Positions 1-29,300 of a stretch of 64,000 nt of DNA are shown here, piece after piece. Below the pieces are notes generated by a model. The model had not been told where the DNA came from. It ran no database searches and was given only the letters and a program-made list of their open reading frames with translations. Positions within the stretch are counted from its first letter, which is position 1. Every line of letters starts with the position of its first letter. The translations under genes were made by a program, and so were the position numbers. Source of the DNA: Saprospiraceae bacterium (GTDB taxonomy: Bacteria; Bacteroidota; Bacteroidia; Chitinophagales; Saprospiraceae); contig JAIPBE010000011.1 of the NCBI GenBank assembly GCA_021738725.1, positions 1 through 64,000 of the forward strand, written 5' to 3'.

Positions 1-3000
1 TAACGGTAGAAGACACTACACCTCCGGTGTTTGACAACAAGCCAGTTGATATCACGGTCGAGTGCGATGCAGTCCCAGTTCCAGAAGTGGTGACCGCGCA
101 TGACAACTGTGATCTCGATGTCGATGTCACCTTTAACGAGGTGAAGACGGACGGTTCATGTCCGGATTATTACACCCTGACTCGCACCTGGATCGCCATC
201 GACAATTGTGGCAATGCATCAACGCATGTTCAGAAGGTAACTGTCGAGGATACAACACCACCTGTGTTTGACAACAAACCGGCAGATATCACTGTCGAGT
301 GTGATGCAGTTCCAGTGGCGGAAGTAGTCACGGCTACGGACAATTGTGATCTGGATGTGGATGTGACCTATAATGAAGTGAAGACGGATGGTTCATGTCC
401 GGATTACTACACCCTGACCCGCACCTGGATCGCCATTGATAACTGTGGTAATGCTGCAACGCATGTACAGAAAGTGACTGTAGAGGATACGACACCTCCT
501 GTGTTTGATAATAAGCCAGTTGATATCACTGTAGAATGTGATGGAGTGCCCGTTGCAGAAGTGGTGACGGCTCATGACAACTGTGATCTGGATGTGGATG
601 TGACCTATAATGAAGTGAAGACGGATGGTTCATGTCCGGATTACTACACCCTGACCCGCACCTGGATCGCCATTGATAACTGTGGTAATGCTGCAACGCA
701 TGTCCAGAAAGTAACCGTAGAGGATACGACACCACCGGTATTTGACAACGAGCCAGCGGATATCACCGTCGAGTGTGATGCAGTACCAGTGGCAGAAGTA
801 GTCACGGCTACAGATAACTGTGATCTGGATGTGGATGTGACGTATAATGAAGTGAAGACGGATGGAAGCTGTCCTGATGCCTACACCCTGACGCGCACCT
901 GGATCGCCATCGACAACTGCGGCAATGCCGCGACGCATGTACAGAAGGTAACGGTTGAAGACACGACACCACCTGTATTTGACAACAAGCCTGTAGATAT
1001 CACGGTCGAATGTGATGCTGTTCCGGTACCCGAAGTGGTGACAGCTCATGACAATTGTGATCTGGATGTCGACGTGACCTATAACAAGGTGAAGACGGAC
1101 GGAAGCTGTCCGGATTACTACACCCTGACGCGTACCTGGATCGCGATTGACAATTGTGGCAATGCGGCAACGCATGTACAGAAAGTAACCGTAGAGGATA
1201 CGACACCTCCTGTGTTTGACAACAAGCCAGCGGATATCACAGTCGAATGTGATGCAGTTCCAGTGCCAGAGGTAGTCACGGCTATGGACAATTGTGATCT
1301 GGATGTGGATGTCACCTATAATGAGGTGAAGACAGACGGATCATGTCCGGATTACTACACCCTGACGCGTACCTGGATCGCGATTGACAATTGCGGCAAT
1401 GCGGCGACCCATGTACAGAAAGTGACTGTAGAGGATACGACCCCTCCGGTATTTGACAACAAGCCAGCGGATATCACAGTTGAATGTGATGCAGTTCCAG
1501 TGCCAGAGGTAGTCACAGCTACGGACAATTGTGATCTGGATGTGGATGTCACTTTCAACGAGGTGAAGACGGATGGAAGCTGTCCGGATTACTACACGCT
1601 GACGCGTACCTGGATCGCGATTGACAATTGTGGCAATGCGGCGACCCATGTACAGAAAGTGACTGTAGAGGATACAACACCACCTGTGTTTGACAACGAG
1701 CCAGCGGATATCACCGTCGAATGTGATGCAGTTCCTGTGGCGGAGGTCGTGACAGCTACGGACAATTGTGATCTGGATGTCCAGGTGACCTATAACGAAG
1801 TGAAGACGGATGGAAGCTGTCCGGATTCCTACACGCTGACGCGTACCTGGATCGCGATCGATAACTGTGGCAATGTGACGACACATGTGCAAACGGTCAC
1901 AGTGGAAGACACAACACCTCCAGTGTTTGATAATACACCTGGAGATGTGACGGTCGAATGTGATGCTGTGCCGACTGCAGAAGTCGTTACGGCGACTGAC
2001 AACTGTGACCTTAATGTAGATGTGACGTATAATGAAGTGAAGACGGATGGTAACTGTCCGGATTCCTATACATTGACACGCACATGGATCGCGATCGATA
2101 ACTGTGGCAATGCGACGACACATGTCCAGAAGGTCAGTGTTGAAGACACGACGCCACCGGTATTTGACAACAAACCAGCGGATATCACAGTGGAATGTAG
2201 TGAGGTGCCATTGCCAGAAGTAGTGACTGCTCATGACAATTGCGATCTGGATGTTCAAGTAACATTCAATGAGATCAAAACCAATGGATCATGTCCGGAT
2301 TACTACACGCTGACACGTACCTGGATCGCCATTGATAACTGTGGTAATGCTGCAACGCATGTACAGAAGGTTACGGTTGAGGATACAACCCCTCCTGTGT
2401 TTGACAACAAGCCAGCGGATATCACCGTCGAATGTGATGCGGTTCCGGTGCCAGAAGTGGTGACGGCTACAGATAATTGTGACCTGGATGTGGATGTAAC
2501 CTTCAATGAAGTGAAGACAGATGGCTCATGCCCGGATTACTATATCCTGACCCGCAGCTGGATCGCCATTGACAATTGTGGAAACGCGACGACGCATGTA
2601 CAGAAGGTCACAGTAGAGGATACGACCCCTCCGGTATTTGACAACAAGCCAGCGGATATCACAGTAGAGTGTGATGCAGTTCCTGTTGCCGAAGTGGTGA
2701 CAGCTACAGATAACTGTGATCTGGATGTCCAGGTGACTTATAATGAAGTGAAGACGGATGGTTCATGTCCGGATTACTACACCCTGACGCGTACCTGGAT
2801 CGCGATCGACAACTGTGGTAATGCGACGACGCATGTACAGAAGGTCACAGTAGAGGATACGACCCCTCCGGTATTTGACAACAAGCCAGCGGATATCACA
2901 GTAGAGTGTGATGCAGTTCCTGTAGCGGAGGTAGTCACGGCTCATGACAACTGTGATCTGGATGTTCAGGTGACCTACAATGAAGTAAAAACGGATGGTT

Positions 3001-6000
3001 CATGTCCGGATTACTACACATTGACGCGCACCTGGATCGCGATCGACAATTGTGGCAATGCAGCGACGCATGTGCAGAAGGTAACAGTGGAGGATACGAC
3101 ACCTCCTGTGTTTGACAACAAGCCTGCGGATATCACTGTCGAGTGTGATGCGGTTCCTGTTGCAGAGGTGGTCACGGCTCACGACAACTGTGATCTGGAT
3201 GTCCAGGTGACATACAATGAAGTGAAGACGGATGGAAGCTGTCCGGATTACTACACATTGACTCGCACGTGGATCGCCATTGACAATTGTGGCAATGCGA
3301 CGACCCATGTCCAGAAGGTAAATGTGGAAGACACCACACCGCCCGTGTTTGACAACAAGCCAGCAGATATTACCGTGGAATGCGATGCTGTTCCAACACC
3401 ACCAGTGGTCACGGCTCAAGACAACTGTGATCTGGATGTCCAGGTGACCTATAATCAGGTGAGAACAGATGGTTCATGCCCGGATTATTACACCCTGACC
3501 CGCACCTGGATTGCGATCGATAATTGTGGCAATGCCTCAACACATGTTCAGAAGGTCACAGTTGAGGATACGACTCCTCCAGTGCTGAACAACAAGCCTG
3601 CAGACATCACCGTAGAGTGTGATGCGATTCCAACAGCTGAAATCGTAACAGCCACTGATAATTGTGACCAGAATGTTCAGGTGACGTACAACCAGGTGAG
3701 AACAGATGGATCCTGCCCGGATAGTTACACCTTGACCCGTACCTGGATCGCGCTAGACAATTGTGGCAACGCAACGACTCATGTGCAAAAGGTGAACGTG
3801 CAGGATACCACACCACCTGTATTCACCAGCACACCTGGTGACATCACAGTTGAATGCGATGGCATTCCACCGGCTCCACCGGTAGCAGCCACTGACAACT
3901 GTGATCTGGACGTGCATGTGACCTACAACGAGGTCCTCACCGCTGGATCATGTGCCAATAATGGCACCCTGACCCGTACGTGGATCGCTATTGATAACTG
4001 TGGTAATGCCACAACACATATTCAAAAGGTAACTATAGAGGATACCACGGATCCAACCTTCGACAATGCTCCGGCAGATATTACGGTCGAATGTGATCTT
4101 GTTCCGGCACCTCCGGTTGTCACGGCATCTGACAATTGTGATCTGGATGTTCAGGTTACCTATTCTCAGGTCAAGACAGATGGCCCTTGTCCGGATAGCT
4201 ATTCTCTATCCAGAACCTGGATCGCTACCGATGAATGTGACAATAAATCGACCCATACCCAGACGATCACTGTACAGGACACCAAACCACCGGTATTCAC
4301 CAATAAGCCGGCGAATATCACTGTGGAGTGCGATGCTGTTCCTGCTCCTCCTGTGGTGACAGCTACGGATAACTGTGATCAGAATGTAGTCGTCACCTTT
4401 ACTGAGGTGCATACAGATGGATCATGTCCGGATACATACATCCTGACACGCACCTGGATCGCCATTGACAATTGTGACAATGCAAGTACACACAGTCAGA
4501 AGGTAACGGTTCGGGATACCAAGTCTCCAGTGTTTGACAACAAGCCTGCAGATATCACCGTCGAATGCGATGCTGTGCCCACGCCACCGGTGGTCACGGC
4601 TACGGACAACTGTGACCAGAATGTAACGGTCACGTTCTCCGAAGTGCGTACGGATGGCAATTGCCCGGATACCTATGTGCTGACCCGCACATGGCTCGCT
4701 CTGGACAATTGCGACAACCCGGCCACCCATGTTCAGAAAGTATCTGTTCGGGATACGAAGGCACCTGTCTTCCTGACCACACCGACAGATCTGACAGTGA
4801 ATTGTGATGAAGTACCACCATTGTTTGTACCTGAGGTCGAGGACAATTGTGATGCCGATGTCATCGTGACCTTGGCTGAAACAGTTCTTCCGGGAAACTG
4901 TACGAACAGTATCATCATCCAACGCGTTTGGACGGCAAAAGACAACTGCAACAATACAGCTCAGGTCAGTCAGAAGATCACAACAGAGGATACCGAGCCT
5001 CCTGTTTTGATCGGCGTTCCTGATGATAATACGGTTGAGTGCGGAGTCGAAGACATCCCACCTGTACCAGTTGTAACAGCAACGGACAATTGCGATCTGG
5101 TTGTTTCTGTGGTTTTCACAGAAGTGATCGTTGATGGAACCTGCCCCGGCAACTATACGGTGATCCGTACCTGGACCGCATCCGACAATTGTGGCAACAC
5201 TTCTTCGGATCAACAGAATATCTTCGTCGGTGATAACAGTGCACCAAGCTTTATCATCCCACCAGCAAATGTGACTGTGGAGTGTGATGCTGTGCCAACA
5301 CCTGCGAATGTGACGGCAGAAGATGCTTGTGATGATGATATTTTGGTATCCTTCACAGAAGTAAAAGAGGATGGCAGTTGTCCTGACTCCTATACCCTGA
5401 TCCGTACCTGGACCGCCACAGATATTTGTGACAATGCCAGTACCCACACACAACGTGTAACAGTGAAGGATACAACACCTCCGGTCTTGAATAACAAGCC
5501 GGCTGACATTACTGTGGATTGCGACGAAACTGTTGCCGTACCAACCATAACAGCAACTGACAATTGTGATATCAATGTGACCGTGACGTACAGCTCTGTC
5601 ATTACTCCGGGTAATTGTCCGGGTAATTATATTGAAACGCGTACCTGGTTGGCTCTGGACAATTGCGATAATCCGACAACGCACGTCCAGAAGATCACTT
5701 TTGTGGACAAGGATCCTCCAGTATTTACCTCAACACCTGCGGATATCACGGTGGATTGCAGTAGTGTTCCACCAGCTGAGGATCTGCAAGCTATCGATGC
5801 TTGTGGCACTGTGTTCATCGCCTTTAATGAAGCATTCTTGCCAGGCATTTGTGCTGGTAATTATACCCTGACACGAACTTGGGAAGCGGTTGATCAGTGT
5901 GGAAACACAACTTCTGTTCAACAGGTCGTGGTCGTGACCAATAACAGTGTACCAACATTTGATAATGTACCTGGAGATATTACTGTCGAGTGTGATAATA

Positions 6001-9000
6001 TTCCGACGGCGCCAACCCTGACAGCCGACAATGATTGCGGTGCGAATGTAGACGTCGACTTTACAGAGACGCGTCAGGATGGAGCCTGCCCAGACAGCTA
6101 TTTGCTGATCCGGGTCTGGACCGCATCCGATGATTGTGGTAATACTGCCAAAGTGACCCAGAACATTACTGTTCGGGACACCAAGGCTCCGGTATTCACG
6201 TTCAAACCTGCTGATGTCACTGTCGAATGTAATGCCGTACCAAATGCGGCAACATTGACCGCGAATGATAACTGTGATATTAATGTCAATGTCACGTTCA
6301 ATGAAGTGAAGACTCCGGGTACCTGTGTGGACAGCTATATTCTGACACGCACCTGGATCGCCATTGACAATTGTGGTAATGCATCTACACATGTCCAAAA
6401 AGTCACGGTAGAAGACAAAACTCCGCCAGTATTATCTGCAATTCCTGAAGATGTGACAGCAGAGTGTGGAGCAATCAATATTCCTACCGTTCCGACAGTT
6501 ACGGCAACGGATAATTGTGATCCATCTGTGTCGGTCTCTTTCTTGGAAACGAAGGTGGATGGTGCATGCCCGGACAGTTATACCCTTTACAGGTTATGGA
6601 CGGCTACCGATAATTGCGGTAACACCACTACTGGACAGCAGATTATTTCTGTGGGTGACAATACGGCACCTGAATTCACGATCAATCCAGGGGATCTCAC
6701 TGTAGAGTGCAGTGCTGTTCCAGGAGTAGCAAATGTAACAGCCACAGATAATTGTGATGTCAATGTGACCGTCACTTTCAACGAGGTGAGGACGAATGGT
6801 AGCTGTCCTGACAGTTACGTGCTGACTCGGACTTGGATCGCAGTGGATAATTGTGACAATGCCAATACACATGTCCAGAAGATCACGGTTCGTGATACAA
6901 CGAAACCAGAACTGGTAGGTGTTCCTGCTGATGTTACAGCTGAATGCGGGATCATCAATATTCCAACAGAACCAGTCGTGACTGCTACTGATAATTGTGA
7001 TGTGGATGTATTTGTTTCTTTCCTCGAAACAACCATTGATGGTGGTTGCCCTGACAGTTATTCAATCATCCGTCGTTGGACAGCTACAGATAATTGTGGC
7101 AATAGCACAAGCGCTGAACAAACTATTTCTGTAGGAGATAATACTCCACCAGAATTTACGACCATCCTAACAGATGTGACGGTCGAATGTGATGCGATCC
7201 CTGGAGCAGGTACGATCGTTGCCACAGATAATTGCGATAACCTGGTTACTGTGTCATACAATGAAGTAGTGACACCGGGTATTTGCGAGAACAGCTATTC
7301 CATCACGCGAACCTGGATCGCTATTGACAATTGTGATAATGCTGCAACACAGGTGCAGAAGATCACAGTGATTGATTCCAAGCCACCAGTATTGGTCGGC
7401 TTACCTGGAGATGTGACGGCTGATTGTGGTTCCAATAATATTCCTCCTGTAGCCACCGTGACAGGTACGGACAACTGTGATGCAGACGTGGCGGTTTCTT
7501 TCAGCGAGACCAAGATTGACGGCAATTGTCCGGACAGCTACACTTTAGTGCGGACCTGGACCGCCACCGACAATTGTGGAAATACTGCAAAAGGTTCTCA
7601 GGAAATCCAAGTGGGAGATATCACGCCACCTGTGTTTGACAGCAAGCCTGCAGATATTACCGTTGATTGTGACGCCGTACCTGGCCCCTCTCTGGTCACA
7701 GCAAATGATGATTGTGATGCAAATGTCACCGTTACCTACAACCAGGTGAAAACCCCTGGTTCCTGTGTCAACAGTTATATCCTCACCCGTACCTGGGTGG
7801 CGATCGACAATTGTGACAACGCCAGTACCCACACCCAGAAGATTACGGTAATTGACCAAACGCCTCCGGTACTTGTAGGTGTCCCGGCGGATATCACAGC
7901 CAATTGTGATGGAGGCGATATACCAACGCCAGCAGTCGTCACCGCTACAGACAATTGCGACAATAGTGTCCAGGTGATATTTGCCGAGACGAAAGTTGAT
8001 GGCTCATGTCCGGATAGCTATACCCTCACACGGGTATGGACAGCGACCGATAATTGTGGCAACACAGTTTCAGGAAAGCAGACCATTTCTGTTGGCGATG
8101 TGACCCCACCAGAATTTGTATCCACACCGGTCGATCTGACTGTGGAGTGTGATGCCATTCCTTCAGCAGGGAACGTTGTTGCTGTGGATGATTGCGATGC
8201 CAATGTCACCGTGACATTCAGTGAAGTGATCACGAATGGAAGTTGTGCAGACAGCTACGTCATCACCCGTACCTGGATCGCCATTGACAATTGTGACAAT
8301 GCCAATACCCACGCTCAGAAGATCACTGTGTTTGATAAAACGCCACCTGTATTGGTAGGAGTGCCAGCTGACATCACAGCAAATTGCGATGGCGGGAATA
8401 TTCCACCAGTGCCAACTGTGACAGCTACAGACAACTGCGACAATAATGTGATCGTCACCTTTACGGAGACGCAGATAGATGGCAGTTGCCCGAATAGCTT
8501 TACCCTGATTCGCAGCTGGACTGCTACGGACAATTGCGGTAATACAACCACTGGAGAACAACAGATCTCTATCGGGGATACCACTCCTCCTGAGTTTGAT
8601 GTCGATCCTGCAGACCTGACGGTCGAATGCGATGCTATCCCGACAGTTACAGCAGTGTCGGCGACTGATAATTGTGATCCGGATGTGACTGTTACATTCA
8701 GTGAGGTCATTACAAACGGTGCCTGTACAAATGAGTTTGTCATCACTCGGACCTGGATCGCGATTGACAATTGTGATAATGCCAATACGCTGGTGCAGAC
8801 CATTACAGTAATTGATGAAACAGCACCCGTACTGGTCAATGTGCCTGCAGATGTCACTTCAGATTGTGATGGTACGAGCATTCCACCGGTTGCGACTGTA
8901 ACGGCTACCGATAACTGTGATACGAATGTAGAAGTCACCTTTGCAGAGACCAAGGTGGATGGGGCTTGCCCCAACAGCTTTACGCTGATCCGTGTCTGGA

Positions 9001-12000
9001 CGGCTACAGATAATTGTGGCAACACTGCGACCGGAGAACAGAAGATTTCTGTAGGGGATACAACACCACCGGAATTTGATGTGGATCCACAAGATGTCAC
9101 GGTACAGTGTGATAATATACCTGGACCAACAGCAGTTTGGGCCACAGACAATTGTGATCCGGACGTCGCTGTCACTTTCAGTGAAGTCATCACACCAGGA
9201 AACTGCACCGATGCATTCAGCATCACGCGTACCTGGGTGGCCATTGACAATTGTGATAATGCCAATACCCTGGTTCAGGTGATCACCGTGATCGATGATA
9301 CGCCTCCGGTTCTGGTTGGTGTCCCTGAAGACATCACAGGTGAGTGCAATGATGATGGAATGCCGCCGCCGATCGCCAATGTATCTGCAACGGATAATTG
9401 CGACGCAGATGTATCCATTACGTTGGTAGAAGTGATGGTAGACGGACCGTGTGAAGGAACGTATGTTCTGACACGCATCTGGACAGCAACGGATAATTGC
9501 GGCAATACCGCATCTGATCAGCAAGTGATCACTGCAGTGGATCAAACACCTCCTGCAGTAGGCGCTATTCCAGCTGATGTGACGGTACAATGCGATGCCA
9601 TCCCGACGGCACCAAGCGTAGATGCATATGACTTGTGTGCAGGTACATTTGTCGCTACACTTTCAGAAGAAGTTTTACCCGGAATCTGTGAAAATGCTTA
9701 TACACTGATTCGGACCTGGACGGCAACCGATCCTTGTGGTAATAGTTCTGCGTTAACTCAGACCATAACGGTTATCGACTCCAAGCCTCCTGTGTTGGGT
9801 CCTGTTCCGAAGGATGTCATGCTGGATTGTGATGGTGGTGATGTTCCACCAGCCAATACGGTCACAGCAACGGATAACTGTGATGCCAATGTCGATGTGA
9901 CCCTTGTCGAAACAGAAACCCCAGGTCTCTGTGACGGATCTTACATTTTGACACGTGTCTGGACTGCCACGGACAACTGCGGTAATACGGCTACGAAAAA
10001 GCAGGTCATCACTGTTGGTGATGCCACGCCGCCTGTATTGGTTGGCTTGCCTTCCGACGCCACCGTCGAGTGTGATGCAGTTCCTGTACCGGCGACTGTT
10101 GTTGCGGATGATGTTTGTGATGACGATGTGGATGTACTGTTCAGTGAACAGATCATTCCTGGCTCCTGCCCGGATGCATTTACGCTGATCCGGACCTGGA
10201 CTGCTGAAGATGATTGTGGCAATGCCACATCTGCCAGCCAGACCATCCTGGTTCAGGATACAAAGGCGCCTGTATTGATCGGAGTGCCTGATGATATCAC
10301 CGCGGATTGTGATGGTGGCGATGTGCCACCGGTAGCGACGGTGACCGCCACTGATAATTGTGATGTCAATGTGACGATCACCTTTACAGAGACAACAGTC
10401 GAAGGTGGCTGTGCAGGATCTATTTTGGTCACGCGCACCTGGACAGCAACGGATAATTGTGGCAACACAGCAACCGGTGTCCAGCTCATTTCGATCGGAG
10501 ATGCTACACCACCAGTCCTGGTCGGTGTACCGGCAGATGCGACCGTGGAATGCGACGAGATCATCGATCCATTGACGGTAACTGCCGAAGATGCCTGTGA
10601 TGACGATGTTGAGGTATCATACACAGAATCGATCATTGATGGTGCCTGCGAAGATTCATATACACTGATCAGGACCTGGGTTGCTTCAGATGAATGTGGT
10701 AACACTTCATGGGCAACACAAAACCTGGTTGTGGAAGACACCACACCACCAATCATGACTGGTGTACCAGTCGATATGACCGGCGAGTGTAACGATGACG
10801 GCATGCCGCCACCGATCGCCAACGTCTCGGCAACCGACAATTGTGATGCGGATGTGACCATTGTCTTGACAGAGACATATGTCGACGGTCCTTGTGAGGG
10901 TACCTACGTACTGACACGCCTGTGGACAGCGACGGACAATTGTGGCAATACTGCCACAGGGTCGCATACCATTACAGCCATCGATGGGCTACCACCTGCA
11001 TTGGGTGCAGTACCCGTTGATGTGACGATCCAATGTGATCAGGCCCTGCCAGCGCCACCTGCTGTATTTGCGGAGGATCTCTGTTCAGGAGATATTGATC
11101 CGATCTTGACAGAGGAAACCGTACCGGGAACTTGTGAAAACAGTTACAAGGTCATTCGGACCTGGACGGCGACCGATCCATGTGGCAATAGTGCGGCACT
11201 GTCTCAAACGATCACAGTGACTGATACCAAGGCACCGGTTCTCGGACCTGTTCCGAAGGATGTCATGCTGGATTGTGATGGTGGTGATGTTCCACCAGCC
11301 AATACAGTTACGGCAACTGACAACTGTGATGCCGATGTCGAAGTGACCCTGGTTGAAACAGAAGCCCCCGGGCTTTGTGATGGATCCTATACAGTTACTC
11401 GTGTCTGGACCGCTACCGATAATTGTGGTAATACCGCAACGAAGAAGCAGGTTATCACAGTGGGTGATGCCACGCCACCGGTTTTTGTCGGCCTGCCTCT
11501 CGACGCCACCGTCGAGTGTGATGCCGTCCCTGTACCGGCTACTGTTGTCGCTGAAGATGTTTGTGATGACGATGTAGATGTACTGTTTAGTGAGCAGATC
11601 ATTCCAGGTTCATGCCCGGATGCATTTACACTGATCCGGACCTGGACTGCTGAAGATGATTGTGGCAATGCCACATCTGCCAGTCAGACCATCCTGGTTC
11701 AGGATACAAAGTCACCTGTATTGATCGGAGTACCTGATGATATCACCGCGGATTGTGATGGTGGCGATGTACCTCCAGTAGCGACCGTAACCGCCACTGA
11801 TAATTGTGATGTCAATGTGACGATCACCTTTACAGAGACAGAAGTCGAAGGTGGATGCGTTGGATCATTCCTGGTCACTCGCACCTGGACAGCAACGGAT
11901 AACTGTGGCAACACAGCAACCGGTGTCCAGCTCATTTCGATCGGAGATGCTACACCACCAGTCCTGGTCGGTGTACCGGCAGATGCGACCGTCGAATGTG

Positions 12001-15000
12001 ACGAGATCATCGATCCATCGACTGTGACCGCCGAAGATGCCTGTGATGACGATGTCGAAGTGACCTATACAGAAGTGGTGATCGAAGGTGCCTGCGAAGA
12101 TTCATATACACTGATCAGGACCTGGGTTGCTTCAGATGAATGTGGTAACACTTCATGGGCAACACAAAACCTGGTTGTGGAAGACACGACACCACCAATC
12201 ATGACTGGTGTACCAGTCGATATGACCGGCGAGTGTAACGATGACGGGATGCCGCCACCGATCGCCAACGTTTCGGCGACCGACAATTGTGATGCAGATG
12301 TGACCATTGTCTTGACAGAGACATATGTCGACGGTCCTTGTGCGGGTACATATGTATTGACGCGCTTGTGGACAGCGACGGACAATTGTGGCAATACAGC
12401 CACAGGGTCTCATACCATTACAGCCATCGATGGGCTACCACCTGCATTGGGTGCGGTGCCCGTTGATGTGACGATTCAATGTGATCAGGCCCTGCCAACG
12501 CCACCTGCAGTATTCGCCGAAGATCTCTGTTCGGGAGATATTGATCCGATCTTGACAGAGGAAACCGTACCTGGAACGTGTGAAAACAGTTACAAGGTCA
12601 TTCGGACCTGGACGGCGACTGATCCATGTGGCAATAGTGCAGCCCTGTCTCAAACGATCACAGTTACCGATAACAAGGCACCGGTTCTCGGACCTGTACC
12701 GAAGGATGTTACTCTGGATTGTGATGGCGGAGATGTTCCACCAGCGATCACAGTGACGGCCACAGACAATTGTGACCTGAATGTAGAGGTGACTTTTACA
12801 GAGACAGAAGTAGCCGGCAATTGTGCTGGTTCGTACACGATCACCCGACTGTGGGTGGCTACAGATAATTGTGGCAATACCTCCAGTAAGGTGCAGCATG
12901 TCTATGTCGGTGATGAATCCGCGCCAGTCATTCTTGGTGTACCGGATGATATCACCCTGGATTGCAGCACAGATGATCCGCCACTTCCAATCGTAACAGC
13001 TGAAGATGTGTGTGATCCAAATGTGAGCCTGACCCTGGAAGAAACCAAGGTGGATGGCACATGTGAGGGTAGTTATACCCTGACCCGCACCTGGACAGCT
13101 ACGGATCATTGTGACAATTCAGCTACGGCTTCCTACACGATCGTGATCGGGGATCAGTCCCCACCGGTCTTCGTTGGAATCCTGCCTGCAGATATAACCA
13201 TCGAGTGTGATGCAGATGTTCCTACAGCTGCTGCATTGACCGCAGAGGATAATTGTGATCCGAATATTGATGTCCTCTTTGATGAGGTGATCACACCGGG
13301 TATCTGTCCTCAATCCTATACGATAACGCGGACATGGGAAGCAGAAGATGATTGTGGCAATGGAGTCAGTCACGTTCAGGTCATTCTGGTCGAAGACACG
13401 ACAGCACCGATCATCGAAGGTGTGCCTGCTGATGTGACCATCAACCTGAGTCTGGGCGAGGTCGTACCGGGTATCCCAATGGATATTGTAGCCACGGACA
13501 ACTGTGATGACAACGTCACTCTATCATTCGATGAAGAAGTTGTAGCAGGAACCTGTGGATATACGCTGGTGCGTACCTGGACTGGAGAAGACAACTGCGG
13601 CAACATGGCCATTCAGTCCCAAACCATTACAGTAATTGACGGACTGGAAGTAGAGTTGACCATCAACCATAAGACCTGTGATAAGCTGGGCGGTATTGCC
13701 GTGACGGTGATCATGGGACAAACACCGATCATCTACAACTGGGCAGATCTGCCAGGCGTGGTCGATGTGGATGTCCGGACCGATCTCGAAGCCGGCACCT
13801 ATAGCCTGACCATCACAGATGCAAATGGTTGTAGCAAAGTGTACGAAGAGATCATCGTTAAGGATGAATGCAACTGCGTCTATCCGGAAGTGGATACGAT
13901 CCTGATCACCCAACCGACTTGTGCGGGAGGTGATGGTATGATCGAGATCCTGTTGGTGAATGACCTTTCAGACTTCCTCTTCATGTGGGAGCCAAACGTG
14001 AGTTCGACCAACAAGGCTTCTCAATTGAATGCCGGTAAATATGACGTTCGAATCGTTTATAAGGATAATCCGGAATGTCTGATCAAGTTGACGATCATGT
14101 TGACCAACCCGGATGCTCCAGAAGCAGAGGTTGTTCATACCACACCAGAGTCTTGTGCAGGAGCTGATGGTTCAGCTACCCTGTCACCGGAGACATACAT
14201 GTACACCTGGTCAGATGGTGGCTCCGGCTACTTCAGAGATGATCTGGAAGCTGGTATGTATTCAGTTGTTGTGACCGATACAGTGACCAATTGTGTCTCT
14301 GAGATCCAGGTTTCTATTGGACAGGTGGACAGTCTCGAGATCGAGATTGTATCTACTACCGCTGAAACATGTGCAGGTGCATACGGAACAGCTCAGCTTT
14401 CTCCTGGCCTATATATATATGTGTGGTCAGATCTTGGAGTAGGAGATGTCCGTGATAACCTGAAAGCTGGAACTTATACCGTAACAGCGACAGATACCAA
14501 AACAGGTTGTACTGCAACTTTGGACGTCACAATTGATCTGGAAAACACCCTTATCACATCTACAGTGATCAACTCAATGCCGACTTGTCAACAAGACAAT
14601 GGCAGTGTTACGATCAATGTGACTGGTGGATCTGGCAGCTATAACTACAGCTGGGGTGCTGGTGCTACCAAGGATAATCTGACTTCCGGTACGTACCATG
14701 TGACGGTAACTGATGAAGTGAGCCTCTGTGAAGATGTGGTCACCTTTACCCTGTTTGATCAGGTGCCAGGTGTGACAGTCCTGGCGGATTCAGTGATCAC
14801 CTTAACCTGCTGGAATAGTGCAAACGGCAAGCTGGAATACCAGCTGGTGCCGGATACTGCATTTGCCTTGCCGGCAACCGTGGTCTTTGTCGATGCCACG
14901 GGCTCGACTGTTGAGAATGGTTCATTGACTGTAGGAGAATACTGCCTGAAGGTGAGCGATGCAAATGGTTGCTTCGCCGGTGAGTTCTGTTTCACAGTAC

Positions 15001-18000
15001 TCGCTCCAGATCCGATCGAGACAGAGATCTCCGTGATCAACGAAACCTGCGACACACTGGGTAGTATCACCCTGGAGGTCACAGGAGGCACGATGCCATA
15101 CAAGTTCGATTGGGATCATCTGCCGGGCACGAATAATGTCCAGAACCTGGTCGATCTAAATGCGGGCATTTACAGCTGCACCATTACAGATGATCATGGA
15201 TGTACTCTTGTATTGGGTGCGATTGTGATCGAGGACATGTGTAATCCTTGCCCACCATCTCTGGATTCACTGACAGTTTATACCAGTAATTGTGATGAAC
15301 CTGGATGTGTCTGTCTGGAGATCCCTCTGGCAAACTACCATGAGTACGTAGTCCTTTGGAACGGTGATCTCTATGACGAGCCGGTTTCCGGTTGCCAGTT
15401 TGATTCAGTCATCGCCTATACGTACTACACACTACTCGGCTTTGGATATGCCGGTCCATATGACCTGCAATCCTGGACGGTTAACGGACAAGTGTATTCC
15501 GGCATCTTCCAGGATGTGGAAGATCTGGTGGATTCGATGAATGTTTGGGATCCAACAGGCAACTGGATGCAATTGCCCAGTCAGTTACTGATCGTTGGAG
15601 GTGACTTCTCCAAAGTCTACGGCATGATGCAGGTGAAGCAATTAGCCTTCCCGAATTCGTATGCAGAAATTGGATTCAATTATGGTATCGTATCTACGAC
15701 TACGAAGCTTCTCTTACCTGTTGGTACTCATGAACTGGTGATCTACAAACAGGGAGAAAACTGTGGAGATACACTGATCGTGACCGTGATCTGCCAGCCA
15801 GATTCTATGCTGACGACAGATACATTATATGTCCAGGTCCCCGTCAATGAGTCGAAGACCACTTGTGTAGAACTTGAACCAGACTTTGATGATGGTCAGG
15901 TGACCTATGCATTGTGTGACGGCTCGACGGATGGAGCCTCCAACTATGGAGAATGGGTTATCGGTGGCGATGGTTGTCTGACATACACCGCCTTCGATGA
16001 TCCGGGTATATTCATCGATGAGATCTGCTTGGTGGCCTGCAATGGTTCGGGTGAATGCGATACAACGATCATCATCGTTTCGATTACCCCCAAAGCTCCG
16101 CCTACCAAGGAGACCTTGTATATGACTCTGCCGGTCAATACCACGGATACGCTCTGTGTGACCCTCGAGCCCATGTTTGATCCATTTACGACCACATTCG
16201 CCCTGGCGGATGGCAGTACAATGAGTGGATCTACATTCGGTTCCTGGACCTTGAGTGAAGCCGGTTGTCTTATCTATAATGCAGGAAACATTCCTGGAAG
16301 TGGTGTTGACACGATCCTCGTGATTGCAACCAATACCATGGGTACCCATGATACCACCTGCATCATTGTGACCATCACGGAAACAATGCCTTGTGAGGTA
16401 TCTGTAGATACGATCCAGGTTTCTATCGAAGTCAATTCCTCGGATCAGATCTGTGTCGAACTGGAAGAATGTATGGATGAGGTGTCCACCTCCTATGGTA
16501 CTTGCTCTGGCGTAAATGCGGGCATTACAAATTATGGCGAATGGACACTCAATGTGAATACCGGATGCATCAATTATGCTTCCGGAACCACAGTGGGTGA
16601 TCAGGTTGACACACTGTGTGTGATCGCCTGTGATTCGGTTGCTAATGTTTGTGACACGACATATGTCATTATTACGATCACTGAAAAAGTGCCTTGCACT
16701 GCTGAGATCGACACCATCGAAGTGAGTCTGGAAGTCAATACACAGTCTACCATCTGCTTAGAATTGGAGCCGTGCATGGATCCATTGATCACGATCCTGT
16801 CAAGCTGTGATGGCTTGACAAGTGGGGTGACCAACTATGGCCAATGGGTGATCGATCCGTTCACCGGATGTATTATCTATACAGCAAGCGATACGCCTGG
16901 TGATCAAGTGGACACGTTGTGTATGGTCGCTTGCGATTCTGTTGCCAATGTGTGTGATACCACCTATATCATTATCACGATCACGGAGGATGAACCTTGT
17001 GAAAGTGAGACCGAAACGATATATGTGAGTATTCCAGTCAATGGTGCAGCATTCGCTTGTGCCAAACTGGAAGCCTGTATGGATTCTACAGCACTTGCCT
17101 ACACAACATGTGATGGCCAGAGTAGTGGAACGACAAACTATGGTAGCTGGACGCTGGATGAAACAGCGGGTTGTCTCAATTATACAGCTGGCGATGTGCC
17201 GGGCTTGTATGTGGATACGCTCTGTGTGATTGCCTGCGATTCAGTGAATAATGTATGCGATACGACCTATGTGATTGTGACCATTACACCGGATTGCCCC
17301 GATATCCTGAAGGATGAGGTGGTCAATATCAATATCATGGATTGTGCTGGTGAAGCCACGTACTGTCTGGATATTCCACTGGATCAGATCGTGAATTACA
17401 CCTTCGAGGAAGATGGATTGCCATTCAACGGAATTGTGGATGGTTGTGACTTCGATTCCTTGTTCGGCTATAATTACTCATTGATCCCGGGTCAGGGGAA
17501 TGCCGGCCCATACCATTTGGATGAATGGTCGATCAATGGAGTGATCTACAGTGGCACATTCCAGGATCTGAATGGTCTTGTCGATTCGATGAACACTTGG
17601 GATCCTGCCGGAAACTGGGTCGTTGATAACGTGATCCTGAATATCATTGGTGGTGATAAAGTCTCCGATTATGGTCCATTACGGATCACTCAGATCAATA
17701 CATTCGTGAAGGCCAATATCCAATTGAATGACTTGTTGCGACCTTTCGGAACATTGGTAGCTGTAGACACCGGTCTGCATGTCATTGTGATCACCGACAT
17801 CGCCACGGGTTGTATGGATACGCTGACATTGAATGTCAACTGTTTCGATTGTCCTGAGCTGTATACTGGTTCAGATACCCTCGAGTTGGCCGATTGCAAC
17901 GATGTTGCTTCCATCTGTCTCGATGTGGATGTAATGGATATTCAGGGTGGTTATACGATCCTGGATAACGGTAATCCATATCAGGGTGGGGTAGAGCCTT

Positions 18001-19764: not shown

Positions 19765-19804
19765 GAGCGCACCCGTAATTAAAAATGGGTGCGCTCCTTT
19801 TTTA
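19765..19804 (+). terminator. Rho-independent terminator-like hairpin between the giant adhesin and the PorP/SprF gene
   Basis: A perfect 10-bp stem (gagcgcaccc at 19765-19774, gggtgcgctc at 19787-19796) with a 12-nt A/T-rich loop is followed by a T-rich tail (cttttttat). It lies 8 bp after the adhesin stop and ends about 19 bp before the next ATG, so it could end the giant transcript or attenuate read-through. Confidence 0.85.
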
Positions 19805-19822: not shown

Positions 19823-20830
19823 ATGAAATTCCCTTCTTTACAAACACTGGTCTTTGGTCTGATGCTTGGTCCTGTTTTGTTGGTCGCCCAACAAGATGCC
19901 ATGTTCACCAAATACATGTTTAATACGCTGGTCTACAATCCAGCTTATGCGGGTAGTCACGACCACTTGTCCATCAACGCACTTCATCGCGGTCAATGGT
20001 GGGGGATCGATGGCGCTCCGACCACACAGACGCTCTCTGTGCATAGTCCGGTCAATGACCGTGTTGGATTGGGTCTGTCTTTGATCAATGATAACATCGG
20101 GCCAACGGGTTCCACCCAATTGAATGCGGTTTATGCATACCGGATCCCGATCGGCGTGGGGAAGTTGTCCATCGGTCTTCAGGCGGGGGTATTCCAGTGG
20201 CGTGCTGATTGGAGCAAACTGAATTTTTTTGACCCCCAAAGCCAGGACCCGGCCTATCGAGAGATGCAACCAACTCGATGGCTACCTAATTTTGGGGCGG
20301 GTGTTTATTATCAGTCACCAAAGTTCTTCATTGGCTTCAGCTCTCCTCACCTGGTCAATTATGATTTGCGGAAGAAGGATTCAACGGAGCCAGATAACCT
20401 GCCAGCAGCTCAGATCTATCGTCATTATTATGCGTTTACGGGAGCGGCCATCCCATTAAATGGTGATGCATTGGTCTTCCGTCCGACGTTGTTGGTGAAG
20501 AACGTGGGCCTTTTTGGAGATGCCAAGAATGCTCGTGGGCGTATTGCTGCACCGACCGAGTTTGATCTCGACCTGGCCCTCTTATTTAGCCAGAAGATCT
20601 GGCTGGGCGTGTCTTACCGATCTTCATTTCAAGCCATTGATGGGACCAGTTCTGTGGACTCCGGAGATATTTGGGCAGGTCTGAACCTGCGAAATGGATT
20701 GCGTATCGGGGCCGCCTATGATTACACACTGACAGATCTCCAATCCTTCGCCGGCGGCTCCTATGAACTGATGTTGGGGTATGATTTCAGCTACGAAGTA
20801 GACCGAATCATTACGCCAAGATATTTCTAA
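19823..20830 (+). CDS. PorP/SprF-family T9SS-associated outer-membrane protein
   Basis: This is a 335-aa protein with an N-terminal signal peptide (hydrophobic run ending LLVAQQ). Directly after it comes the family hallmark opening FTKYMFNTLVYNPAYAGS. The rest is typical of a beta-barrel: alternating polar/apolar strands, glycine- and aromatic-rich, ending in YEVDRIITPRYF with a C-terminal aromatic residue. Members of this family (PorP of Porphyromonas, SprF of Flavobacterium) are encoded next to type B T9SS cargo and are needed for export or surface anchoring of that partner, so the likely partner is the giant adhesin just upstream. The ATG at 19823 is chosen because the signal peptide starts there. 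A hairpin separates the two genes, so expression may need read-through or a local promoter I cannot identify. Confidence 0.9.
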   Translation: MKFPSLQTLVFGLMLGPVLLVAQQDAMFTKYMFNTLVYNPAYAGSHDHLSINALHRGQWWGIDGAPTTQTLSVHSPVNDRVGLGLSLINDNIGPTGSTQLNAVYAYRIPIGVGKLSIGLQAGVFQWRADWSKLNFFDPQSQDPAYREMQPTRWLPNFGAGVYYQSPKFFIGFSSPHLVNYDLRKKDSTEPDNLPAAQIYRHYYAFTGAAIPLNGDALVFRPTLLVKNVGLFGDAKNARGRIAAPTEFDLDLALLFSQKIWLGVSYRSSFQAIDGTSSVDSGDIWAGLNLRNGLRIGAAYDYTLTDLQSFAGGSYELMLGYDFSYEVDRIITPRYF

Positions 20831-22320: not shown

Positions 22321-23367
22321 CTAGAATTGAGGACAGTTAACCCGATATCTTGACTCGTACGGGTGCTCGTAAATAAGGGAGATTTCTACCCCACCACGCG
22401 ACTGTGAGGCCTTTTTTAAGGAAGAATGATTGACATCATAGCTGATGCCAAGATTCCATCGCTCTACCTCCAGGATAAAACTATAGATCAAAGCGTCCAG
22501 ATTGACTCCCTGGTCCAGTTTATTTGCCAATCTAGCCCAGACACCAGCTCGAATCGCTACTTCATACCTATCGTGATTGGTATACCGAAAGTTTGTGCCG
22601 AATACTGTTTCCTGGGAGGGTCCCTGAAAAGCAAACATTGCTCCCGGGAGCATACTGAAATTGGGGTTGAACGGTACTTGTCCCCCTGCATGAATGATAT
22701 ATTTAGAATAGAGTGACTCATCACCATTTTCCTGAAAAGAAATATTCGGACGATTGGCATGCGCAATTGCACCGCCACCATATATGCTGGCATCATCATC
22801 AAAGAGAGCATAATAGAGTAAGCCAGCACTGATGTCCAGAAAGATATTGGTTTTGTCTCCGATCAGTTCGTTGGAGGGCAAGGTGGGATCCACTGTTTCT
22901 GTACCTCCATTATACTGATTGCTGAACCAGAAATTCCCATAGTCCAGAGAGTATTGGCCAAACCCCGCCTGAAGACCGAACGACAGGTATTGATCATTTG
23001 TACGGTATTTTCCGCCGGCCAGTTGTTTCATAAAGCCCAGATTGAGACCGCCTCGGGTTTGTCTCAATTGTCCGGCACCCGCCTGATCCTGCAATACAGC
23101 CACGCCAAAGGTCAGATAGTCATCCTGGAAAACCCGATAACGCATATCTCCGGCAACGGCAATGGTTTGGAAAGCGTCAGTTCCCAGAATACTGGACCAT
23201 TGGTTGCGGTAGTTGGCGGCAACCCTGAACTGGCCATTGAAAATACCAGTCATCGCGGGATTGATCTGCAATGCAGCATTGTAAAACTGGCTGAAATGCG
23301 GGTCTTGTGCCTGCAAAGGCATCGAAAGGAAAAGGAAAGAGAAAACTGCAAGGATGATAAGCCTCAT
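22321..23367 (-). CDS. PorP/SprF-family T9SS-associated outer-membrane protein (second copy)
   Basis: A 348-aa protein with a signal peptide (MRLIILAVFSFLFLSMPLQAQ) and the family opening DPHFSQFYNAALQINPAMTG, the canonical PorP/SprF start. The remainder is a predicted beta-barrel with recurring YRNQW, GLQAGF and VAIRAGVW strands. It starts 12 bp after the stop of the 2051-aa adhesin and is clearly co-transcribed with it as the last gene of a three-gene operon. This matches the sprB-sprF arrangement known from Flavobacterium, where SprF is needed for export of SprB. It is only distantly similar to the PorP/SprF protein at 19823, so the two pairs are probably not a recent duplication. Confidence 0.92.
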   Translation of the reverse strand: MRLIILAVFSFLFLSMPLQAQDPHFSQFYNAALQINPAMTGIFNGQFRVAANYRNQWSSILGTDAFQTIAVAGDMRYRVFQDDYLTFGVAVLQDQAGAGQLRQTRGGLNLGFMKQLAGGKYRTNDQYLSFGLQAGFGQYSLDYGNFWFSNQYNGGTETVDPTLPSNELIGDKTNIFLDISAGLLYYALFDDDASIYGGGAIAHANRPNISFQENGDESLYSKYIIHAGGQVPFNPNFSMLPGAMFAFQGPSQETVFGTNFRYTNHDRYEVAIRAGVWARLANKLDQGVNLDALIYSFILEVERWNLGISYDVNHSSLKKASQSRGGVEISLIYEHPYESRYRVNCPQF

Positions 23368-23379
23368 AGTGAGATTGGT

Positions 23380-26300
23380 TTAGCGAAGAAGAGTTGTCTG
23401 ACCGGAAAAAAGCTGCTTGAAGCCGTCGATGAATTCCACCTCTAGCGTCCAAATATAAACACCACTATTCATTTGCTCCCCTTTGAATGTTCCATCCCAC
23501 CCAATTAGTGGATCGTTGATCGGAAAATCTTGCTGTTCAAACAGTTGTTCTCCCCATCGATCGAAGATCTTGAAGACTATGATTCTGATCCCATCACGTC
23601 CGTGGATCAACAGTTTGTCATTCTGCCCGTCCTGGTTGGGTGTAAATGCAGTAGGTACCAACACAACCAGGTTAGCGTTGACCCAAACAGTAATAAAATC
23701 GACAGCCTCACAGCCGCGATCATCTTCAGCCACCAGTTTATATATGGTGGTGTAATACGGCGTTGAAACAGGTGTGGCACATGTCGTACAACTCAGGGTA
23801 CCACTATAAGGGGCTTGCCAGAACACAAATGGCAGAGTGGATGCATTATGTGAGAAGGATAAAGTAATGCTTTGTCCCAGATCGATGGTCACATCATCGC
23901 CAAGGTCGATTTCAAATGCAAGCGGATCAATTAGATCGACCATGGATTCTGCTGTGCAACCATTTTTATCGGTGAGTCGGACAAGATATTGTCCTGGCCC
24001 CAGAGGCGTGAAGACCTGGTTAGGTGTAAGTGGTCCCGCATTGAGACTGTACATATAAGGGCTTTCCCCCCCTGAACCGATAGCTGTGATCCGACCATCC
24101 TTCGTGTTGGCACATGTTGGAGATACGCCGTCAAGATCGAGAACCAGTGGAGCAGGTTCATCAATTTGAACACTGGATGTCAATGTACATCCGGCATTAT
24201 CTGTGATCGTCACTGAATAGGTGCCGGCCGCCAGATTGCCATTGAGCGCTAACATGTTGCTGTTGCTCCATAGATACTGATAGGTTGGAGTCCCTCCTGA
24301 CACCATGATGGCAATGGATCCATCCGTCAATCCCTGGCAGCTGGGCGAAATTCGATTGGTATTCGTGATTTGCAGGGGAGAAGGTTGAGGTACAAAATAG
24401 TCGTGCACTACGCTACATGCTTGGTCATCCGAAATGGTGACCTGATACGTTCCCGTTGCGAGATCAAGAGCCTGGTTCCCGTTGGAATTGATGATTTTCG
24501 GATCCCAGATGATCTGATAATTTCCGGAACCTCCAGTGATATTGGACAGATCGATCTGACCGTTCTTCTGACCGAAGCACAATACAGGTGTGATCGTCGA
24601 TGTTGCGGTGATGGGAGCCGGCTGTTCCAGGAAATAGGTGGAACTTGTTGTACATCCAGATGGATCAGTCACTGTCACAGTATAGGATATGCCTCCTGCG
24701 AGTCCGCTGGCCAGTTCCCCGGTTTGTGCGGGCATGGTACTCCAGGTATAGGTGTAATTTGCTGGAATGCCCCCTCCGGAGCCACCATCTACGAAAGTGA
24801 CGCCTATGGAGCCGTCTGCCTGGCCAAAACAGGATGGCATCATGCCCGCGACGGATACCAGTACAGGTGGTAAGTCCTGGACCAGAACGGATGCTTCAGC
24901 GGTGCAACCGGCTCCATCTGTGACGGTGACTGCGAAATTGCCAGGTCCCAACCCACTCAACGGATTGGCAGTGTCTCCGGTATTCCAAACATACTGGTAC
25001 CCGCCTCCACTGCCACCTGACGACGTAGCGGTGATTTCATTTTGATCTTGTCCGGCACATCCCGACCCACTTTGTTGGGCCATGATGGTCAGCGCTGTGG
25101 AGGGTTCGGCGACAACCCCACTGCCTACTTGTGTACATTGATTGGCATCCGTGACAGTAACAGTATACATACCCGCAAACAGATCAACGGCGACTTTAGA
25201 GGTTTGACCCAATGGGTCACTCCAAAGATACGTGTAAGGGCCTGTGCCACCTGAGGGCGTGACAGTTAGGCTTCCACCGGATTGACCCAGACAAGGAGCG
25301 GGTGTCGCAACAATATTTACCAGGATCGGTGCCGGTTCTGGTAGATTGATCGAACCTGTAGTTTGGCAACCCAGAGATCCTGTGATGGTGACACCATACA
25401 TGCCTGCGGTAAGACCAACCGCAGGATTGCTCGTTTGAGCGCCCGTATCAGACCATTGAAAGGAATAGATACCGGACCCGCCGGAAACAATTGCCTCCAG
25501 GGTGCCATCGGCACCCTGGAAACAAGTGACCGGAGTGACGTTGATACTGTCCAGGATCAGAGGAGCCTTGGCAGTGATTGTTACTGAATCGACTACAGAG
25601 CAACCATTTTGATCGGTGACGGTAACCATATAAAGCCCGGGGTTGATTCCCATGATGGTATCTGTAGTACTGTTTCCTGCGTCATTCCAGAGATAGCTAA
25701 AGGGGGGTGTCCCTCCGGCAAGCATGACGATAGCGGAACCATCCTGACTATTGATGCAGGTCGCCTCCACAGCACTCATATCTGTGGAAATGGAACCGGG
25801 TGCCCCGACCACCACTTGCGATTTTTGGGTGCAACCCTTTGCATCCGTGACGGTCACAGAATATATGCCCGCATTCAATCCAACAGCCGTCTGTGTCATC
25901 TGACCAGAAGAATCGTTCCATAAAAAAGTAAAAGGTGCGGATCCGCCCGAGACGATATTGACCGTTGCTGTGCCATCGATGACACCCTGGCAACCAACAG
26001 GTGTGCTGCTGGTAGAAAGCTGTATGCTATCCGGGTTGCCAATCGTGACTGAAAGCGTATCCAAACATCCTTTGACATCCATTATGATGACCTCGAAGAC
26101 ACCGGGTGTTAAGGCTAATGCGGTGTCACTCATTTGCATCGCGGGGTCTTGCCATGCAAACACAACAGGTAACGGCGCCTGGATCACTTCCACCCAGGCT
26201 GTGCCGTCCATTCCATTATAACATGAGACCGGTAAAGACTGCGGCTGATACTGGTTGGGGGGGCCTTCATGGACCTCCACCGTGGAGCTGGTTTTACATT

Positions 26301-29300
26301 GATGCGCATCAGTGACCGTGACCATGTACAGTCCCATATCCAGACCGGTAGCCTGTTTCGTGTTTTGCAGATTGCTCCATAGATAGGTATAGGGCATCGT
26401 TCCACCTATCGGGTTGACTGTGGCGGATCCATCCATTTTACCCGGACAGGACACGGAATCCGTCTGGAAGGACAACAGGATCGGGTCTGGTTGGGATATC
26501 GTCACTAGCGTGTCCCGGATGCAGCTGTTATCATCGGTAACGCGCAGGGTATAGGAGCCGGCCTTTACATTGGTCAGCACCGCATTGAATACAGCAGGGA
26601 CAGTAAACCATACATATTGAAAAGGTGATGTCCCACCCTGGGCCATGGCGGTTGCCCCACCGTTCTTCTGATCGTAGCACAACACGGAATCGATGTCGAT
26701 CTGAATGTCGATTGGATCCGGTTGGTCCAACGTGAAATACACAGTATCCATACAGCCCATCGCATCGGTGACGATAACAAAATGATCACCGGCAGCAACA
26801 CTGTTGAAATAGCCGATCCCTTGGGTCTTCACATTGTCCAGATTATAGCTGAACGGGGAAGTGCCATCATATGCAGAGATAAATGCTTCACCATCATTGC
26901 CACTGTAACAAGAGGGCGGCACAGTGTTTTCTACTACCGCGTACATCTGGCAATCCAGAAAACGGCACCCCAGGGTGGCGATCTCATTCGGACAGGCCGG
27001 GTTGATATCCAATACTTTGACTTGTATGGTAATGGAATCACCATTGTTCAGGCCATTGATCAGGTGAGTCAGGTTGGTGGTCGGTGGCACCCACCCGTTT
27101 TGATTGACATTGACGGTATAACCGGCAGCGCCAAGTATCGCCAGCCAATTGATGGTCAGAGTATGATTGGACATATCTCCGCATGTCAACTCAGGCGCAT
27201 CAAATGTCGGATAGATGGTAATTTCAGATGAGGCATTCAAGGTGCAACCATAAGCATCCTCGGCCTCCAGAGAATAGATCCGTGTCGAATCGGTGTTGAC
27301 CACAGGGTTGGGACAATCCGAGCAGCTCAATGCATTGGATGGTGCCCAAGTATAGGTTTGTTGATTGCCCGCATGCAGATTGATCGACCAACTTTCGAGC
27401 AGGCCCATTCGGTTCAACCCGAAATTGTCCGACACGACAAGTTTCCAGTCGCCATTGATTGGAGCGCCAGTCAGATCATTCCAGTCGCCTTCAGGTAGAT
27501 AGACACCTGTGAATGGTGCGGAATTACCTGTGATGCCGGTAGCGGCATTCGGGCTGAAGCAAGTGTTGATATAATTGATGCCATTGCCCCCGTTTCCAGT
27601 CGTCAATTCCAATTGCTTTCCATCGGGTGCTTCCAGGAAGACATTGATATTATTGACGGGATTTGTTCTGAGCGTAAAACACACGGATTCGATTTCTGCA
27701 GCATTTGCAGACAAGGTCAACGGATAGACATTGTCCACCAGGATCGACCCTTTGTACGGATTGGGTGGGGGATTTGTAGAATACCCGATCGGAACCATTG
27801 GATAGCTTGCAAAAGGGATGGTCATTCCCTGGAATCCATTGATAGAAGCGTCCAGACTGAAGGGGTCACCAACACACACTGCCGTATCCGGAGTGATGAT
27901 CAGATCGCCAGTGCACTGATAACAATCCGGATGGGTGGGGGGCAGGACAGCGATGGTCACAAACGTATCTCCCTGGCAAACAAATTCATCTTCATAGGTC
28001 AGAGCAAAAAAGATCTCTCCTGCCGTCGGTGCAGTTGCCTGGATCTCTTTGCCCTTGTTCAGATAGATATTGGGCTGGTTGACCCAATTGAGGTTGGTGA
28101 TGTTCGGCGTGAATGTCTCGATGTTGGGCAGCAGGATTTCATCAAAGGTGATATTCCAGAAAAAGATGAAGCCATTGTCGATCTCCCACAAGTCCTGGAT
28201 GGTCAGCACCCATTCGCCATTCAAGGGGCAGCCGATCAAGCCGCTCAAGTTTTCAAAAGTGTTGTAGTCTCCAGGTGGCAATGTGCCTGGATCATTGGCA
28301 TTGGCATATTCCAGCCAGGTGCCATTCGTCGCACCATATGTCCAGCAATACGTAAAACCCTGGCCAGGAATAGGCTCTGGCAGGAGTTCATCACCTTCAA
28401 AAGGGTTACCCAGGAAGACCTCATCTCCAGTTTCTTCCTGATTAACCAGCGTGACCGATTGGCCGGAAGGGCACGTAAGGGTGATATTAAGGTCACGCAT
28501 CCAGGAGTGTTCCATATTTGCACAGATCGACAAGATCTGATTGGGGTCAGTGAGCACTTTGTCGCTCGGGAATTCAGTGAAGTAGACACTGGTTTGGTAG
28601 GATGCACCATTCCCATCCGGCAGAGCCAATGAATCGGAACGGATCTTGGTCAATTCAAACTTGCTCAATTGGGGAATGACCTGGACATTGGATGTTCCGA
28701 TGGACCCAACCTGTGCGGTCAACGTCAGCGAATCTTGAAAACAGATGGGTCCGGGTAAAACGGGGATGTTCACTTTCGGAGGGGGCGCGACACGCACTTT
28801 TCTGGAAATGATATTGGTATTCCCGCATCCCAGTTGGTCCCGCACATGCAGACTGACGACATATCCCCCGGGAAGATCATATTGATGGGCCACGTTCAAT
28901 CCATTGACAATATTGCCATCGCCAAAATCCCATTCGAACGTGCACAAACCTTCGCTTTGGTTGTATAGAAGGTTATTCTGAAGGAAGGTGGCGCCTGCCG
29001 AAAAGTCAATACTGGTGCCTGGGCAAATATCGATCCACCCGGTATCTGCCGGCACTACTGCCGGATCTGTATTGGTGATCAAGGCATTAAACGCCTGACA
29101 AGCAGGGACACAGTCGATATCGGCGATCCAACCCTTTCCCTGGCCACTGCTTGTGCTCATAAATGTAACTGTGATGCATCCACTGAAATTCAATGGACTG
29201 GCCTGGAGTATAAAAGGTGCACCTGCCTGGTAATCACTGGCGCATCCCAAAGAGGTTCCCAGGATATTGGGGCCATCGAAAAAGCATAGTTCATCTCCGG

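Follow-up and report, generated by a model that had tools for sequence, protein, structure and literature searches.

One-, two- and six-domain repeat periods in a giant bacterial gene and the probable order of their amplification

How does a single reading frame come to hold tandem repeats of three unit sizes, and can the order in which they arose still be read? The question is raised by a giant gene at the start of contig JAIPBE010000011.1 from a Saprospiraceae bacterium (metagenome-assembled genome GCA_021738725.1, 4.18 Mb in 109 contigs), of which positions 1 to 64,000, hereafter the window, were analysed. The frame is uninterrupted over 3..19757 on the + strand, as are the features below unless stated otherwise. 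It encodes at least 6584 amino acids (aa) without a start codon in the window and carries 57 tandem domains (D00-D56) in its first 13.6 kb. This array very probably expanded, in an ordered history, through unequal homologous recombination that involved units of several sizes. Base 1 of the contig (G000:C65) falls inside the gene, and the residues TVE ahead of D00 are the tail of another unit, so the array continues upstream and the N-terminus lies outside the contig. The domain count is a minimum, and copy number rests on the assembly.

Three repeat periods in one frame

Domains were cut at a conserved Trp motif, with one missing anchor placed by hand and one boundary moved by one residue, and the resulting starts lie a constant 15 bp before those marked in an earlier note on this DNA. 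That note had described unit starts 237 bp apart from 27 to 5004, domain pairs 480 bp apart from 6429 to 9309, and six-domain units 1446 bp apart at 9792, 11238 and 12684. All three spacings are exact, with starts at 12 + 237k from D00 (12) to D21 (4989), at 6414 + 480k from D27 to D39 (9294), and at 9777, 11223 and 12669.

The first period comprises twenty 79-aa (237-bp) HYR_4C domains, D00-D19 (12..4751), and its exact spacing extends via D20 (4752) to the start of D21. The diverged domains D20-D26 (4752..6413) follow, among which D21-D26 (81, 79, 79, 78, 79 and 79 aa) are irregular in length, lie outside all three periods and have no super-period. D27-D38 (6414..9293) form six dyads of an 81-aa A domain and a 79-aa B domain, and this alternation continues with small length changes (82 and 80 aa) through D39-D52. 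Each hexad is therefore three A-B dyads. There are two full hexads, D41-D46 (9777..11222) and D47-D52 (11223..12668), with D53 opening a third, rather than a long array; D39-D40 (9294..9776) are older relatives, at a lag of six domains, of D45-D46 and D51-D52. The array closes with D53, the third domain of type X1, and the end domains D54-D56 (12669..13637), which are collinear with the ortholog in a same-genus genome, G001.

Lag identity in the raw DNA is 78.1% at 237 bp in 1-4988 (mean of all lags 25.2%), 65.6% at 480 bp in 6414-9293 (versus 42-43% at 237 and 243 bp) and 70.0% at 1446 bp in 9294-13395; by aligned domain, lag-6 identity in D41-D52 is 90.9%. When domains were reordered at random, the observed lag mean was reached in 32 of 100,000 trials for lag 2 in D27-D38, and in 0 of 100,000 both for lag 6 in D39-D53 and for lag 1 in D00-D19. 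The lag identities and the reordering tests exclude chance as the source of the periods. Neighbouring domains are 48% identical in protein in the dyads and 44% in D41-D52, whereas domains two apart in the dyads are 69% identical and those six apart in D41-D52 are 96% identical. In D16-D26 the corresponding values are 50.5% for adjacent domains and 49.4% for domains two apart. Within D00-D15, DNA identity is 81-83% at lags 1-5.

Domain trees recover the same units. The first DNA tree covered 30 of the 57 domains (D05, D11, D18 and D27-D53) and the second 12. The odd domains of D27-D38 part from the even ones with support of 99/99 in the 30-domain tree and 100/100 when analysed alone, and D41-D52 resolve into six starred sister pairs, one per hexad position. 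These are the alternating clades and the six clades of two that the note had proposed as support in 6429-9308 and 9792-12683. A protein tree of 54 domains, which left out D20, D24 and D56, retains the six hexad pairs (Shimodaira-Hasegawa-like approximate likelihood ratio test, SH-aLRT, 84-95). Further starred groups, (39,(45,51)), (40,(46,52)) and (53,(41,47)), indicate that equivalent domains six apart predate the hexad copying. In the 30-domain tree, which is unrooted, D05, D11 and D18 join the B domains of D28-D38 (99/99), as though the 237-bp block had expanded from a domain of type B.

Relative ages and the junction in D47

Which unit was amplified last? The earlier note had placed the youngest rounds toward the N-terminal side, and over the gene as a whole the opposite is found. 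Synonymous differences per site (pS) are lowest between the C-terminal-side hexads (0.30, 0.24, 0.20, 0.20 and 0.25 for D42-D46 versus D48-D52), which makes the hexad copy the youngest event, toward the C-terminal side. The 237-bp units come next (mean 0.62 in D00-D15 and 0.53 in D00-D06), and the dyad classes are the most diverged (0.79 for A and 0.72 for B, both saturated). Over D00-D15 (12-3803) pS ranges from 0.23 to 0.88, with silent sites near saturation. A trend toward younger N-terminal units survives only inside the 237-bp block, where it is uneven: 0.55 (D00-D04), 0.49 (D03-D07), 0.67 (D06-D10), 0.60 (D09-D13) and 0.75 (D16-D19), with the most diverged units beside the irregular zone. 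It is equally compatible with an array that is kept homogeneous away from its edge.

The 237-bp block is no recent burst. Adjacent domains in D00-D15 are ~92% alike in protein and 83% in DNA, and the ratio of nonsynonymous to synonymous change (dN/dS) is ~0.05, so selection preserved the protein while silent sites drifted. In alpha-satellite higher-order repeats, too, periods are nested and a new unit is seeded at an older register. The earlier note's view of successive amplifications with different unit sizes, nested in satellite fashion inside one frame, holds, and the likeness has limits: unlike alpha-satellite, this array is coding, evolves under purifying selection and has only two hexad copies.

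The note's claim of successive amplification gains a visible crossover point. Site-by-site comparison of D41, D47 and D53 shows that D47 is chimeric, D53-like up to 11246 and D41-like from 11252. Left of the break (the last part of D46 plus bases 1-24 of D47), 63 sites favour the following copy versus 4, and right of it (from base 30 of D47) 44 favour D41 versus 15. The best break lies at 11246-11252, corresponding to 9800-9806 in D41, and one as good arose in 0 of 20,000 permutations that assumed independent sites. Such a switch is the expected trace of an unequal crossover between equivalent domains that already lay six positions from each other.

Comparison with the G001 ortholog orders these events against a species split. 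The G001 contig stops inside the gene and leaves ten domains visible (e0-e9); e1-e5 correspond to D42-D46 and e6-e8 to D53-D55 by order and tree, and e9 to D56 by order only. The tail of the gene differs from this ortholog by a pS of 0.70, with 80% protein identity. A joint tree of 46 of 75 rows (without e0, e9, f5, f7 and D56, and with only D05, D11 and D18 from D00-D26) recovers all six window pairs as starred groups that exclude the G001 domain; beyond that, it gives e1 and e2 no clear nearest partner. The hexad copy, or its last homogenisation, therefore postdates the split. The older lag-6 duplication predates the split, since D39 and D40 fall outside the groups that e4 or e5 form with their window pairs, and e6 is the partner of D53. 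G001 has a pair-wise repeat of its own where its contig ends: e0 and e2 are identical over 114 bases, which may be an overlap left by assembly. In another same-genus genome, G004, the ortholog has repeated dyads. In four genomes of the genus, draft assemblies in which absence proves little, the closest match to a 948-base query from the 237-bp array is 73% over 151 bases.

The history that we favour would begin with the A-B dyad register. A B-like domain would have been amplified into the 237-bp block. Where the array is organised in dyads, the older, partial lag-6 repeat would have come from recombination between equivalent domains at a distance of six. After the sister-species split, six domains would have been copied in full in tandem, with the junction in D47. 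From these patterns we infer homologous recombination as the agent.

Weighing the history against alternatives

Several points weigh against this history. Gene conversion could likewise give young-looking copies. The pS of D41/D47 is 0.55, above that of the other five hexad pairs, and together with the 15 contrary sites right of the break this makes a later exchange likely. The DNA tree of all 57 domains separates the classes less cleanly (6 changes for A and 4 for B), and in it the long row of D20 splits D43/D49. The evidence comes from one assembly of one strain, with the N-terminus outside the contig, and adhesion is a presumptive role of the protein.

In the most serious alternative, which we nonetheless consider unlikely, the two hexads arose long ago, gene conversion has maintained their likeness, as in concerted evolution, and the switch in D47 is the edge of a conversion tract. 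An older lag-6 repeat does exist (D39-D41 versus D45-D47 and D53), and a parallel occurs in another giant gene of the sister species G003 and G004 (L033 and L035). In both species that gene has 31 detected domains and contains two copies of a 491-aa unit of six domains. There the copies are alike within genomes and not between them: pS within a genome is 0-0.25 in G004 and 0.31-0.49 for five of the six domains in G003 (the first is not alike, at 0.74), versus 0.61-1.03 between genomes. Gene conversion acting on an old duplication explains this second gene best, making it a candidate case of concerted evolution; two independent duplications are possible. In the window gene, by contrast, all six units are paired and there is a single sharp switch at homologous positions, as one tandem duplication predicts. 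In G001, moreover, e1 follows an e2-like rather than a D41-like domain, and no second full hexad is seen up to the point where the contig ends.

Given the six-domain unit in the second gene, the window is not alone in showing recombination at a fixed register of several domains. Among 14 arrays of at least 8 domains at other loci, two of them orthologs of the window gene (G001 and G004), near-copies occur at lag 6 in two (one gene in two species), at lag 2 in three and at lag 1 in one, and eight have none at 70% identity or more. An order-wide survey for PF23237 at E <= 1e-15 found 4 of 119 genomes and is uninformative, since the window's own genome was also missed. In one further array (L036, at the end of contig G004:C5), 80-aa units form a first block and 82-aa units a second; the units of the second are nearly identical, and that block runs off the contig.

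Could selection have set the arrangement? Large multidomain proteins usually keep neighbours below 50% identity, which has been proposed to limit misfolding (PMC8201768). Block amplification would lengthen a stalk while neighbours stay unlike, and the super-repeat would in that case owe its arrangement to selection and be renewed by repeated recombination, always at a register of six domains. Recurrence of that register in the second gene of two sister species supports the idea. Neighbours in the 237-bp block, 92% alike, weaken it, as does the irregular stretch D16-D26, where likeness is no lower between adjacent domains than at a distance of two, and we hold this reading to be rather doubtful.

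Much of what the favoured history of unequal recombination involves is familiar from other proteins. Titin (connectin) has super-repeats of 6 and 10 immunoglobulin (Ig) domains in the I-band and of 7 and 11 domains in the A-band (PMC12241362), so six-domain units as such are known. As in titin, Ig-like domains (here putative) share one frame, unit number varies by lineage and trees group domains by position in the unit, here as the odd/even separation in D27-D38 and the six starred pairs in D41-D52. Unlike titin, the array is bacterial, is not built from exons, shows no evident sequence relation to it, has only two full hexads, and combines one-, two- and six-domain units. Single-domain expansion is known from bacterial stalks (PMC8201768, PMC3492233). 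Periscope proteins are likewise surface stalks of tandem folded domains whose length changes by recombination, with highly identical single-domain repeats that vary in number among strains (PMC8201768), unlike the super-units and the 81-83% DNA identity of the 237-bp repeats here. A Periscope protein also presents a functional N-terminal domain at a distance from the cell, and the corresponding end of the window protein lies beyond the contig. The ice adhesin MpAFP has ~120 identical 104-aa Ig-like repeats; it resembles the window array in being giant, in its diverged edge repeats and in an expansion ascribed to unequal recombination, and differs in its DNA-identical repeats, single period and suggested Type I secretion (PMC3492233). 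Searches of an open-access library, which cannot prove absence, found no bacterial case in which units of one, two and six domains share an array, can be ordered by age and come with a located crossover; in the available portions of PMC3257693 the sole mention of super-repeats is a mucin reference.

Draft assemblies often break at the repeats of giant surface proteins, and those of the sister genomes do so here. The repeats of the window gene have diverged enough for the order of events to be read, from an old pair register through single-domain expansion and an old six-domain duplication to a new one with its crossover preserved. Super-repeats in the style of titin can thus arise in a bacterial stalk, and the gene family is suited to measuring domain gain, homogenisation and the divergence of neighbours.

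Domain family, putative secretion and the surrounding locus

The HYR_4C profile (PF23237) scores above its curated cut-off in all four pieces into which D00-D56 was divided (191.8, 184.4, 182 and 360 bits), and 12 + 11 + 11 + 18 = 52 stretches pass individually. Four cysteines are conserved in 56 of the 57 domains (D56 has three) and probably form disulfides. Pfam rows in the array such as DUF3613 and Njmu-R1, with zero stretches passing individually, were ignored. Structure predictions, which used 14 and 30 three-domain stretches, render D35-D37 and D11-D13 as beta-sandwich chains (predicted local distance difference test, pLDDT, 91.1 and 95.3; predicted template modelling score, pTM, 0.68 and 0.72). 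Foldseek returned mainly cadherins, with SraP second; among the 50 matches listed the best E is 2.7e-10 and the template modelling (TM) score to the model is at most 0.47, weak as whole chains. VIA Z values are 8.7 and 8.3 for SraP, a staphylococcal adhesin, and below 8 for the others. A sequence search of the PDB with the domains gave no match at E 0.1.

Beyond the array, 13638..19757 encodes SprB repeats, Big_9 and a CHU_C Type IX secretion signal (85.5 bits). The next gene, at 19823..20830, encodes a PorP/SprF-type carrier of 335 aa (PorP_SprF, 244.4 bits), and SprA is present in the genome (SprA_N, 462 bits). The CHU_C tail, the adjacent PorP-like protein and SprA fit a type B substrate of Type IX secretion, and the giant protein looks like a secreted stalk with its PorP/SprF carrier. 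The pair recalls SprB and SprF of Flavobacterium johnsoniae, in which a huge repetitive CHU_C-type substrate is bound by a PorP-like partner encoded alongside (PMC9143113, PMC12635249); the HYR_4C array and the form of the carrier set the window pair apart.

Does the giant protein then move along the cell surface as an SprB-like gliding adhesin? Its size, SprB repeats, CHU_C tail, adjacent PorP/SprF gene and the presence of SprA would suit that role, as would a GldJ-like protein, which at 358.6 bits falls below the curated cut-off of 458.2. F. johnsoniae SprF requires a C-terminal Cys-X-Cys for gliding (PMC12635249), whereas the window carrier has no cysteine at all and the tail is absent from all four carriers examined in the genus (the window's and three others), so a static stalk or adhesin is likelier, and gliding is improbable. 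The stalk or adhesin role is itself a suggestion from domain content and gene order.

The edge of the contig bears on the assembly. It is very improbable that the hexad copy or the unit order is an artefact of assembling a metagenome, for even though the contig starts inside the array and the matching contigs of G001, G002, G003 and G004 also begin or end inside the gene, the copies differ (hexads 90.9% alike, 237-bp units ~83%), the longest exact same-strand repeats in 1-13700 at lags of 237-3999 are 122 and 101 bp, the frame stays open throughout, and a lag-6 unit occurs in another gene of two other genomes. When the rest of the genome was searched with 711 bases of the 237-bp array, the missing 5' part of the gene was not found: the best match outside C65 was 75% over 93 bases, in C106. 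The first 20 bases of the contig have no second + strand occurrence in the window and so offer no reason for the contig to stop there.

Between the giant gene and the carrier gene, a hairpin with a 12-bp stem is followed by a T run (19765..19796). A strong hairpin occurs at this position in all four genomes examined (the window, L060, L061 and L062), with differing stem sequences, and in each of them 0 of 200 shuffles folded as well; the T run is present in the window, L060 and L062 and absent in L061. The hairpin may set the ratio of giant protein to carrier. Two further loci in the window have related content: on the - strand, a PorP/SprF gene (22321-23367) lies beside one for a 2051-aa protein with SprB-repeat, PKD, P_proprotein and CHU_C domains (23380-29535), and on the + strand 32134-37377 encodes 1747 aa, the third protein here with SprB repeats, which also has a CHU_C domain.

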